DNA of 64,000 nt, taken from Qipengyuania soli (GTDB taxonomy: Bacteria > Pseudomonadota > Alphaproteobacteria > Sphingomonadales > Sphingomonadaceae). The notes under the pieces were generated by a model. It had not been told where the DNA came from, did no database searches, and saw nothing but the letters and a program-made list of their open reading frames with translations. Position 1 is the stretch's first letter. Every line of letters starts with the position of its first letter. The stretch is from the NCBI RefSeq assembly GCF_015529805.1, contig NZ_CP064654.1, positions 1,488,001 through 1,552,000 on the forward strand, written 5' to 3'. Of this stretch, positions 25,410-45,690 are shown one piece after another. The position numbers were made by a program, and so were the translations under genes.

Positions 25410-26624
25410 ATGTCCGATATCAAACGCGTCGTCCTCGCCTATTCCGGTGGCCTCGATACCTCCGTCATCGCCAAGTGGCTGAGCGTGGAGCGAGGTCTCG
25501 AAGTCGTGACCTTCACCGCCGACCTTGGACAGGGCGAAGAGATCGAACCGGCGCGCGCCAAGGCCAAGGCCATGGGCATTCCCGACAACCACATCTTCAT
25601 CGAGGACCTGCGCGAGGAATTCGTGCGCGATTTCGTCTTCCCGATGATGCGCGCCAACGCTCGCTATGAAGGCGACTACCTCTTGGGCACGTCGATCGCC
25701 CGCCCGCTGATTTCCAAGCGCCTCGTCGAGATCGCGCACGAGACCGGTGCCGATGCCATCGCCCACGGCGCCACCGGCAAGGGCAATGACCAGGTGCGCT
25801 TCGAGCTTTCGGCCTATGCGCTCGATCCAAATATTCGCGTGATCGCCCCGTGGCGCGAGTGGAACCTCACCAGCCGCACCGCCCTCATCGCCTGGGCTGA
25901 AGCGCACCAGATCGCCGTTCCCAAGGACAAGCGTGGCGAGAGCCCGTTCTCAACCGACGCTAACCTCCTCCACACCTCGTCGGAGGGCAAGGTCCTCGAG
26001 GACCCGTGGGAGGAGACGCCCGACTACGTCTATTCGCGCACCGATCATCCCGAGAACGCGCCCGACACGCCCGCATACATCACGATAGACTTCGAAAAGG
26101 GCGATGGCGTCGCCCTCAATGGTCAGGCAATGAGCCCGGCGACGCTGTTGACCGCCCTCAACGACCTCGGCCGCAAGCACGGTATCGGCCGTCTCGATCT
26201 CGTCGAGAACCGCTTCGTCGGCATGAAGAGCCGCGGGATGTACGAGACCCCCGGCGGCGAGATCTATGCCCGCGCCCATCGCGGGATCGAGCAGATCACT
26301 CTCGACCGCGGGGCGGCGCATCTCAAGGACGAGCTCATGCCCAAGTATGCCGAGCTCATTTATAACGGTTTTTGGTTCAGCCCGGAGCGCGAGATGCTGC
26401 AGGCGGCGATCGACCTCAGCCAGGAAAAGGTCAGCGGGACCGTCCGGCTGAAGCTGTACAAGGGTCTGGCGAGCGTCGTCGGCCGCAAATCGCCCAATTC
26501 ACTCTATTCGGAAGCGCATGTGACGTTCGAGGATGACGCCGGCGCATACGACCAGAAGGACGCCGAAGGCTTCATCAAGCTGAACGCGCTCCGCTTGCGC
26601 CTGCTTGCCAAACGCGACAGGTAA
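25410..26624 (+). CDS. argG: Argininosuccinate synthase
   Basis: Condenses citrulline and aspartate with ATP in arginine synthesis. 404 residues, full length. The PP-loop ATP-pyrophosphatase motif [15 protein letters not shown] is at residues 10-24. Further blocks are [42 protein letters not shown]-type ([10 protein letters not shown]) and [17 protein letters not shown]. Monocistronic. Downstream lies the long non-coding stretch. Confidence 0.97.
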
Positions 26625-26759
26625 TTGCGCTGCAACATGGGTTGTGCATCGCAATATTGCGCCTGCAGCATCGCATTTGGATTATTTTTGCGATGAACCG
26701 TTGAGTTATCCACCCCCCTCCACAGGGAAAAGCGGGGAAAGTGGAAAACTATACTCTTG

Positions 26760-27325
26760 CGCGATTGCAGAATCGGCTCGGCAGGAGCAGCTTTAACTCA
26801 TCGGAACGGCGAGGAAGCCAGCCGAACTGGAAGGTCCAACGATCTGAAAGTTCGAAAGAATTCCAGACCGGAAAGACGTGACGGAAGCTGTCCGCACGGA
26901 TCAAGAGACCCTCGTGGCGAAGGCTTCGGCCGGAGACAAGGCGGGTCGATGACGGAACCGTGAAGTCATTCCTGAACGAGCATGGCCAACCCGGCCGGAC
27001 GCTGATGGATGCTGAACCGGAAGGTCTTCGGACCGGAAAGAGAAGCAACCGCTCGAGGCTCCGACCACTACGGAAGGTCTTGCTGCGGAGCCGCCTGTTG
27101 AAGGCCGGCCTGGGACAGAAGCGAGGGTCTTCGGACCTGGCGCACTTGACCGGGTAGACTGGAGGGTGGAGCCGGATGCCGGTGCGAGCGCCGGTGACAG
27201 AACCGGAAGACGGATCTTCGGATGCGACGGACGGGGAAACATCGGATGCCAAGTTCCTGCCTCTTCGGAGACAAGACCACGCATCGGTGAGAGTGGGGTC
27301 GGCAGCAATGCCGGCCCCATTTGCT
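26760..27325 (+). ncRNA. Candidate long structured non-coding RNA (UUCG hairpin array)
   Basis: The 956 nt from the argG stop to 27580 hold no convincing gene, and all forward frames are repeatedly interrupted. The middle part is different in texture from coding DNA. I count about 28 GGA trinucleotides on the plus strand between 26761 and 27300 against only a handful of TCC. There are five UUCG-capped hairpins: 26922-26931, 27023-27034, 27126-27137, 27214-27223 and 27261-27270. A -10-like TATACT lies at 26750-26755, and a terminator-like hairpin (GGGGTCGGC 27295-27303 with GCCGGCCCC 27310-27318) is followed by ATTT. Upstream, 26625-26749 has GCATCGCA repeats and a CATCGCA/TGCGATG hairpin. Downstream, 27326-27580 is leader to the RlpA-like gene with nothing I recognise. 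The RNA is an inference. Confidence 0.45.
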
Positions 27326-27580
27326 ATGCGGGAAGCAAGTTTCCGTACGGCCACATGTCGCATGGCAAAGCCGCTCTTGATGCCGAAAATGTGCACGAAC
27401 TGCGGCCTCCAACCACTCGTATCGCGACTCGGTAGCACCCCCAAGATGCTGTAGGAAAACGGATCGCGGTTCCCCGAACCACGACGAACTGTGGCGCAAA
27501 TGGGGCAGGAACCCCTCCTGTTAAGGACTCCCGGGACCCCCTCCGGTATAGCCGCCGGAACCGAACGGGAGGTCCAGATC

Positions 27581-28096
27581 ATGGCCAAACGCGCGATACG
27601 CACGCTGCTTTTCATTGCTGCAACGGCCTTGCCGACAACCGCGGGCCACTCGGCCGACCGCGATGGCGTGGCGGCGGCTGTCGCGGCCGATGTCGCCTTT
27701 GCGTCCAGCTTCGCCCAGTTCGAAACGCTGCCCCCTGCCCCCGTGGCCACCTCCGGTGCGGTCGACATCGACACCATCGAGCCGGTCGCCGAAACCGCCG
27801 GCACCCCGCTCGGCAGCGGCACCGCATCCTTCTACGGCCGCGCATTCGACGGCCGGCGCACCGCCAGCGGCGAAGTCTTCCGCATGAACGAGATGACCGC
27901 CGCGCACCGCACCCTGCCCTTCGGTTCGCATGTCCGGGTCACCAACCCGGCGAATGGCAAGTCGGTGGTGGTCCGCATCAACGACCGCGGACCCTTCCAC
28001 GGCGGTCGCGTGATCGACGTGAGCCGCGCCGCCGCCACCGAGCTGGGCCTCGTCGCCCGCGGCCACGGCACGGTCGAACTCGCGCTGGTCGACTAG
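27581..28096 (+). CDS. RlpA-like septal ring lytic transglycosylase / double-psi beta-barrel protein
   Basis: 171 residues from ATG 27581, behind CGGGAGG. The signal peptide is MAKRAIRTLLFIAATALPTTAGHS. After an Ala/Pro-rich linker comes the RlpA barrel: GTASFYGRAFDGRRTASGEVFRMNEMTAAHRTLPFGSHVRVTNPANGKSVVVRINDRGPFHGGRVIDVS. The Asp of NDRGPF is the conserved residue in this fold. No SPOR domain is present, so it is a short RlpA form. Periplasmic, peptidoglycan-directed role inferred from family. Confidence 0.88.
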   Translation: MAKRAIRTLLFIAATALPTTAGHSADRDGVAAAVAADVAFASSFAQFETLPPAPVATSGAVDIDTIEPVAETAGTPLGSGTASFYGRAFDGRRTASGEVFRMNEMTAAHRTLPFGSHVRVTNPANGKSVVVRINDRGPFHGGRVIDVSRAAATELGLVARGHGTVELALVD

Positions 28097-28155: not shown

Positions 28156-28422
28156 ATGTACATCCCCCTGCCCTTCCTCGTCCTCGGCGTCGTGCTGCTG
28201 CTCGTCTTCGTCCTCGCGGCCCGCAGGCGCGGCGGCGGCGACATGATCGAGCGCCAGCGGCGCAACACCCCCGTTTCCCCCGTCGACGCGCACAAGGCGC
28301 TCGCCGATCCCGATGTGGCCACGGCGCTGGCGGCGGGGCGCAAGATCGAGGCGATCAAGCTGGTGCGCCAGCGGACGGGCCTCGGCCTCAAGGAAGCCAA
28401 GGACCTGGTCGAGAAGTCCTAA
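28156..28422 (+). CDS. Membrane-anchored protein with L7/L12 C-terminal-like domain
   Basis: 88 residues. One transmembrane helix (PLPFLVLGVVLLLVFVLAARRR) is followed by a linker and then KIEAIKLVRQRTGLGLKEAKDLVE, which closely follows the helix-turn-helix of the ribosomal L7/L12 C-terminal domain, the part that contacts translation GTPases. Such membrane-tethered copies occur as uncharacterised proteins. Its last four bases overlap the end of the convergent gene at 28419. Confidence 0.8.
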   Translation: MYIPLPFLVLGVVLLLVFVLAARRRGGGDMIERQRRNTPVSPVDAHKALADPDVATALAAGRKIEAIKLVRQRTGLGLKEAKDLVEKS

Positions 28423-45504: not shown

Positions 45505-45690
45505 ACGACGCGCACAGGCAGGTCTCCTGGCTCCCGGATCATCGCTCGCCCGCCGCCTTCCCGGACGCGCGGTCCAGTGGCATGTGGCGGGATCGCTCCC
45601 CGGTCACAGTTGCGGGGGCAGCGAGGGCATTTCACCCTCTTCCCTCTTCGGGCCTGCGCGAACAGGCCAACCCATGACGCGGTGCCGCCA
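45505..45690 (-). promoter_or_regulatory. Cobalamin riboswitch upstream of btuB
   Basis: Read on the minus strand, the conserved blocks are in order: GAGGGAAGAGGGTGAAA, GCCCCCGCAACTGT, GCCACTG, GGGAAGGCG, and the B12 box AGCCAGGAGACCTGCC (plus strand about 45516-45531). This is the adenosylcobalamin riboswitch aptamer. It is expected to shut btuB-F-C-D off when B12 is abundant. Outer helices may extend the ends by a few bases. It accounts for most of the 359-nt gap 45410-45768. Confidence 0.95.

Follow-up and report, generated by a model that had tools for sequence, protein, structure and literature searches.

A large folded non-coding RNA very probably encoded beside argG in Qipengyuania soli and its relatives, with a predicted replication-linked promoter

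Between argG and an rlpA-like gene of Qipengyuania soli there is, very probably, a gene for a large folded non-coding RNA (about 520 bases), which is kept beside argG in many relatives and matches no Rfam family. Our analysis concerns a 64 kb piece of the chromosome (64,000 nt, called the window below, and the source of all coordinates given without further remark); the genome is a single contig of 2,910,044 bases, on which the RNA locus lies at about 1,515,000. The upstream neighbour is argG for argininosuccinate synthase (25410-26624, Pfam PF00764/PF20979) and the downstream neighbour is the rlpA-like gene (27581-28096, PF03330), both on the plus strand, and the 956 nt between them hold no credible gene. 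Comparison with homologous loci has shown a predicted fold that is kept by compensatory changes, a conserved terminator-like hairpin and conserved promoter-like boxes. The best reading of these features, which in our opinion is rather probable, is that a chromosomal gene, present as a single copy, codes for a large structured RNA; this RNA would act in trans, and the predicted promoter of the gene would be linked to replication.

The initial annotation described the gap as free of genes, and this is borne out: an antisense frame of 357 amino acids at 26749-27822 and three other open reading frames, the four that were tested, gave no Pfam match at E ≤ 1. Open frames shift between homologs of the gap, and among 29 relatives aligned to the window we counted 193 indel runs (many of them common by descent), with 148 of a length equal to 1 modulo 3, 27 equal to 2 and 18 equal to 0. 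A hidden coding gene is therefore rejected, and the decayed coding gene that had been named as the alternative fails for the same reason, namely that neither frames nor indels are conserved.

A discrete structured RNA on the plus strand, of roughly the length first proposed and ending at the terminator first proposed, is on the other hand strongly supported by covariation. The predicted transcript runs from 26800 to 27322 (about 520 nt, both ends predicted), as judged from the conservation profile, covariation, promoter and terminator. Folding of the plus strand gives z = -2.82, with none of 100 shuffles as good, vs z = -0.91 and 20 of 100 shuffles for the minus strand. All five of the UUCG-capped hairpins that had been pointed out are there, with CUUCGG at 26924, 27026, 27129, 27216 and 27263, and so are the repeated elements, GAAGGTCTTCGGACC at 27020 and GAGGGTCTTCGGACC at 27123. 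The terminator-like hairpin occupies exactly 27295-27318 (plus strand), reads GGGGTCGGCA-GCAA-TGCCGGCCCC and is followed by ATTTGCT, and it is there that conservation stops.

By blastn, a conserved block at about 26700-27325 is found in 33 of 37 Qipengyuania genomes and in none of 24 genomes from other families of the order. In the conservation profile, made from 30 loci aligned from argG to rlpA (three of the 33 carriers gave no locus and are outside this alignment, A1), conservation climbs near 26700, remains high as far as 27325 and drops sharply past the terminator, and the flanks are less conserved. The terminator-like hairpin, which carries a GNRA tetraloop, is the most conserved part of the locus; positions 27282-27321 are 96-99% conserved in the 30 loci, and the loop, GCAA in the window, is GCGA, GTGA, GAAA, GAGA and twice TTCG in relatives.

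Covariation on homologous regions downstream of argG, the check that had been suggested together with the original claim, was strongly positive. RNAalifold on the 30 sequences of the genus gave 123 pairs, in which 96.8% of cells are paired, vs 29.5-43.7% when the partners are slid, and 48 of the 123 pairs show changes on both sides, vs 27.7 in shuffles. Since the A1 structure comes from the very alignment used for this count, pieces of it were tested outside the genus. Alignments A2, A4 and A5 took 24, 22 and 22 of 30 loci, and A3 is without L033 and L034, which belong to the same genus, and L067. Helix 1 of the A1 structure is probably spurious, since it uses bases that precede the predicted start and holds no varying pair.

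The 5' domain (26875-26980, plus strand), predicted from covariation and from a model called R3, consists of a long arm with an inner hairpin that is UUCG-capped in the window. R3 was built from the genus Qipengyuania only; it finds 24 of 33 loci of other genera (E ≤ 7.1e-6), with the matches placed upstream of the 3' domain, and leaves the four loci that lack the RNA unmatched. Changes on both sides occur in 22 of the 23 pairs of this domain, as counted over 25 matches, one of them at chance level, in an alignment fitted to the model. The 3' domain (27178-27288, plus strand) is predicted to form a three-way junction with a variable third hairpin, in which helix Pa joins 27178-27186 with 27280-27288 and helix Pb joins 27188-27196 with 27240-27249. 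When Pa and Pb are taken from the genus and applied to 33 sequences (all but one from other genera), 95.1% of cells are paired and 7 of 18 pairs have changed on both sides, vs 2.8 in shuffles; none of 500 shuffles reach these helices on four of five measures, and 57 of 500 do so on the fifth. A local hairpin, CCGGUG-CGAG-CGCCGG, competes for the same bases. It has double changes in two of six pairs with 98.5% of cells paired, but 13-29 of 500 shuffles do as well or better, according to which measure is taken. We prefer Pa/Pb over this hairpin, and the two may alternate. Between the domains lies a middle arm (27084-27177, plus strand; helices 15-19 of the consensus fold) with a UUCG hairpin at about 27126-27137. 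It is more variable and weak outside the genus: in 44 loci a model of it gave 16 matches at E ≤ 1, of which five are at E < 0.01 and some are misplaced.

How far does the RNA extend beyond the genus? A covariance model of its 3' domain, R1, matches 73 of 149 genomes of the family at E ≤ 0.001 and 50 of 149 at 40 bits or more. Among 118 genomes drawn from the whole order it matches 25, every one from the same family and 12 with a score of at least 40 bits. Most of the weak R1 matches are probably chance terminators, because only two (L072 and L073) of the 18 loci L068-L085 lie near argG. An exact pattern of the tail occurs in at least 119 stretches in named genomes, and the 80 listed among these belong to Erythrobacteraceae, a family which GTDB places within Sphingomonadaceae, or to metagenome-assembled genomes named only to Sphingomonadaceae, Sphingomonadales, Alphaproteobacteria or Proteobacteria. 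The place of the gene is constant in the strong loci that were read: it lies downstream of argG in all 30 loci of the genus, in all 35 family loci L033-L067 and in all 28 family loci that were fetched by the promoter pattern described below (the sets have some genomes in common). Phage and plasmid collections gave no match to the RNA and viral contigs no exact match to its tail, and an RNA of phage or plasmid origin is rejected on this ground.

In distant genera the body of the RNA measures about 560-710 nt and is hardly alignable to that of the window, so that the case for orthology depends on position, promoter and terminator. Among such loci, L248/L290/L291, L292-L294 and L273-L275 have the same place, promoter boxes and terminator in common but differ largely in the body. 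L290 shows recurring motifs, ACATCGGAYGCC for instance, and the body evolves fast between fixed ends.

Four of the 37 genomes of the genus (G001, G008, G010 and G024) have only a short spacer between argG and rlpA. Since these genomes do without the RNA gene, it appears to be dispensable and not essential. One of the RNA-less loci L237-L240, L238, contains a leftover, GCGACGAACCGTTG, similar to the beginning of the conserved block upstream, which suggests a deletion of the RNA gene. The simplest inference, made without a tree, would be that the gene is old, vertically inherited and dispensable.

The initial annotation took TATACT at 26750 for a -10 box and the start of the transcript. Here we disagree: TATACT varies freely among relatives and is rejected as not conserved, and the conserved promoter boxes are found about 15-45 nt further downstream. 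According to the alignment, the predicted -35 box is TTGCAG at 26765-26770 (TTGAAG in many members of the genus), followed after a spacer of 17 nt by a predicted -10 box, CAGCTT, at 26788-26793 (CAGTCT, CATCTT, CATTCT and others in relatives). A GAATC at 26770-26774, that is at -30 to -26, has the form of a GANTC (CcrM-type) methylation site. Three DnaA-box-like sites precede these elements. Site 1, TTATCCAC at 26706-26713 (about -94 to -87), is conserved across family loci; site 2, CTCCACA at 26718-26724 (-82 to -76), has letters identical to those of the Caulobacter podJ P2 motif; site 3 is inverted, GTGGAAAA at 26741-26748 on the minus strand, and reads GTGGATAA in many relatives. All other elements are on the plus strand. 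The order of TTATCCAC, (C)TCCACA and inverted GTGGATAA at near-fixed spacing, then TTGNNN, GANTC and a CAGCTT-like box, is the common plan of the promoter.

The likeness to podJ is a striking parallel. According to PMC4287350, Caulobacter podJ P2 has the DnaA motif CTCCACA at -82 and a GANTC at -24, and ctrA P1 has a GANTC at -29; with the predicted start at 26800, CTCCACA of the argG-side RNA is likewise at -82 and its GAATC at -30 to -26.

The three sites match the perfect DnaA box, TTATCCACA, at only 8, 6 and 7 of 9 positions in the window; in genus g23, two sites are perfect TTATCCACA in each of three loci. Perfect copies number four in the 2.9 Mb genome (12 for a backward control) and are absent from the spacer of hemE, and this rarity and absence make it seem that DnaA boxes are relaxed in this genome or that the word TTATCCACA is avoided. 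A strict palindrome pattern is present at the RNA locus in six of seven carriers tested and absent from two RNA-less genomes; elsewhere it occurs in two of four genomes of other families, one of which matches the backward control too. A looser three-site pattern is found in 121 of 396 genomes of the order, never twice in one genome, and 119 of these are in the family. Thirty such loci were read (28 from the family and two from outside); of the other 91 family matches at least five, in genera g117 and g96, resemble a different sequence, and some R1-positive genomes (G064, G114, G126) are missed. As for the two matches outside the family, f5 is followed about 150 nt downstream by a hemE-like gene, whose relative in the Q. 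soli genome is URO-D by Pfam, and the other is unrelated.

The methylation site is better placed than chance would have it. The count covers 78 family promoters (80 loci minus two unrelated ones, with five pattern-less loci outside the count). GANTC lies within 75 nt in 72 of them (mean 19.0 and maximum 31 in shuffles) and is absent in the other six, and it lies at an offset of 20-23 after site 3 in 65 (mean 1.2 and maximum 5 in 500 shuffles), with 13 lacking it at that place. Those 65 divide into 34 GAATC and 31 GACTC, and because the letter N varies at a fixed place, this points to selection on the methylation site. GcrA is encoded in the Q. soli genome.

Transcription is probably timed by chromosome replication: DnaA and the CcrM/GcrA methylation system would read this promoter, and transcription would change as the replication fork passes the locus. 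With less conviction, we suggest that the RNA could be a trans-acting regulator or scaffold, folded and tied to the cell cycle, and that it acts neither as a messenger, nor as a leader of rlpA, nor as a sponge for CsrA. A more daring version, which we put forward only tentatively and consider doubtful as a whole, is that of a family of large ornate RNAs outside Rfam through much of Sphingomonadaceae/Erythrobacteraceae in which DnaA and fork-dependent GANTC hemimethylation would gate a burst of a multi-domain RNA whenever the argG region is replicated, the product being a replication-timed scaffold or feedback regulator.

The alternative that survives best, even if we regard it as unlikely, is a long trans-acting antisense RNA that pairs with mRNAs via one or two exposed loops, in the manner of EcpR1 or CcnA. 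Alphaproteobacterial cell-cycle RNAs of such kind do exist (PMC8959179, PMC4414408), and the predicted 5' end, AUCGGAAGG/AUCGGAACGG, which recurs in g108 and others, could be a seed; the argG-side RNA is, however, larger and more ornate than an RNA made of seed plus terminator. CcnA of Caulobacter crescentus is a cell-cycle-regulated non-coding RNA at the replication origin, presumably activated by CtrA (PMC8959179), and EcpR1 of Sinorhizobium meliloti is a cell-cycle-linked RNA with two stem-loop domains downstream of divK-pleD, present across several families (PMC4414408). Compared by these descriptions, CcnA is likewise an alphaproteobacterial RNA, and cell-cycle control of the argG-side RNA is proposed from promoter motifs only; the latter differs in lying beside argG, about 1.05 Mb from the hemE region, and in having DnaA-like and GANTC signals. 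EcpR1 is similar as an alphaproteobacterial RNA with a cell-cycle link and with conservation over several families, whereas the argG-side RNA is multi-domain and lies beside argG, again on the basis of the description.

Somewhat less probable still is that the DNA element is what matters and the RNA is secondary, the locus being a DnaA-titrating or replication-control site, for which datA and DARS are the examples in E. coli. Three DnaA-box-like sites at near-fixed spacing, in an arrangement that occurs no more than once per genome, would fit this explanation, but it leaves the covariation of the downstream RNA pairs unexplained, and the likely origin is far away. In many alphaproteobacteria hemE adjoins the origin, and we take the hemE region at 2.567 Mb to be the likely origin of the Q. 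soli chromosome. There hemE (URO-D by Pfam), at 2,567,169, is preceded by an AT-rich spacer and separated from the RNA locus by about 1.05 Mb; GC skew, coarsely sampled from 20 stretches of 6 kb and the window, agrees loosely with an origin near hemE. An origin at the RNA locus itself is rejected, since hemE and the AT-rich spacer lie at 2.567 Mb.

We think it improbable that the stretch is a cis-element, whether as an attenuator or long 5' leader belonging to rlpA or as the 3' UTR of argG. In the genus of the window and its close relatives the RNA does lie between the two genes and on the same strand. Conserved promoter-like boxes of its own precede it, however, and a terminator of its own closes it about 260 nt ahead of rlpA, after which a poorly conserved stretch follows, and argG and rlpA are both present without the RNA in the four genomes mentioned above. 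Moreover, rlpA is not the neighbour in all carriers: it comes next after the RNA in the 30 loci of the genus, in L033-L067 and in 20 of the 28 promoter-pattern loci, but was not found in the fetched flank of the other eight (genera g23, g45 and g108), in which the promoter boxes are retained and the terminator follows the same design.

Two observations on this side of the locus may be recorded. A GACTC (GANTC) site at 27526-27530, upstream of rlpA, is conserved, also in the RNA-less loci L237-L240, and with a conserved upstream GANTC of its own rlpA may be regulated by methylation as well. Further downstream, an open reading frame of 88 amino acids (28156-28422, plus strand) has an end that matches the C-terminal domain of ribosomal L7/L12 (PF00542, E 4.1e-9, residues 59-87), preceded by a hydrophobic N-terminal stretch.

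The weakest proposal, that of a GGA-rich sponge RNA binding a CsrA/RsmA-type protein in many copies, has very little chance of being right, because although the stretch has many hairpins and is the most GGA-dense of the window (27 GGA in 522 nt), the genome gave no match to CsrA (PF02599) in a search whose control was positive in three of 14 genomes, E. coli, B. subtilis and T. maritima. The GGA bias itself, from which the idea of a protein sponge had come, is confirmed, with 28 GGA vs 6 TCC in 26757-27296. Over 1,270 windows of 522 nt within the 64 kb, the mean is 7.6 GGA (sd 3.3), and the only three that reach 27, starting at 26701, 26751 and 26801, are those of the gap block. The excess is modest vs shuffles that preserve dinucleotides (21.3 ± 2.9, with 28 reached in 15 of 1000), so it is mostly a matter of base and dinucleotide composition. 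Of the 28 sites, only six are shared by 90% or more of 30 homologs, whose GGA counts range from 18 to 30. Sponge RNAs of the CsrB/RsmY type are GGA-rich and hairpin-rich, and the argG-side RNA is so likewise; it differs in that most of its GGA sites are unconserved and no CsrA was found in its genome.

The known RNA families do not account for the argG-side RNA. RNase P, tmRNA, 6S and SRP RNA are Rfam families, as are OLE, ROOL and GOLLD. A search of 26600-27600 against Rfam 15 gave no match at E ≤ 5, and a known Rfam RNA is rejected on this ground. The only gathering-level match in the 64 kb window is a cobalamin riboswitch (45513-45676, minus strand, 132 bits) outside the RNA locus, and the window gave no tRNA or tmRNA. 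Eight distant loci searched against Rfam yielded only a sub-threshold match, that of BjrC68 (RF02353) to the 3' end of the distant homolog L290, at 28.8 bits with a gathering score of 39. Five other places of the genome match BjrC68 at 24-34 bits and none of 289 genomes is above the cut-off, for which reason we reject this identity as a general match to terminators. Open-access literature, searched by title and start of abstract, returned no description of the argG-side RNA, which may be in print elsewhere.

OLE, ROOL and GOLLD are large, highly structured bacterial RNAs with covarying helices (PMC12286853). The argG-side RNA resembles them in being large and highly structured with covarying helices, and differs from them in having no Rfam match at E ≤ 5 and no phage or plasmid match. 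We assign it to the kind of large structured non-coding RNAs on account of a covarying structure, the lack of a conserved open reading frame and the predicted signals of a discrete transcription unit. By the features tested, it is none of CcnA, EcpR1, OLE, ROOL and GOLLD.

Bacteria have few large structured RNAs that lack a reading frame, and the ones examined closely have proved to be unusual assemblies. The argG-side RNA is chromosomal, has a fixed place, belongs to culturable hosts and is naturally absent in some close relatives. That RNAs serve cell-cycle control in alphaproteobacteria is illustrated by CcnA and EcpR1 (PMC8959179, PMC4414408). The promoter signals reported here could link the argG-side RNA to chromosome replication, and a large RNA timed by replication would thereby become a testable proposition.
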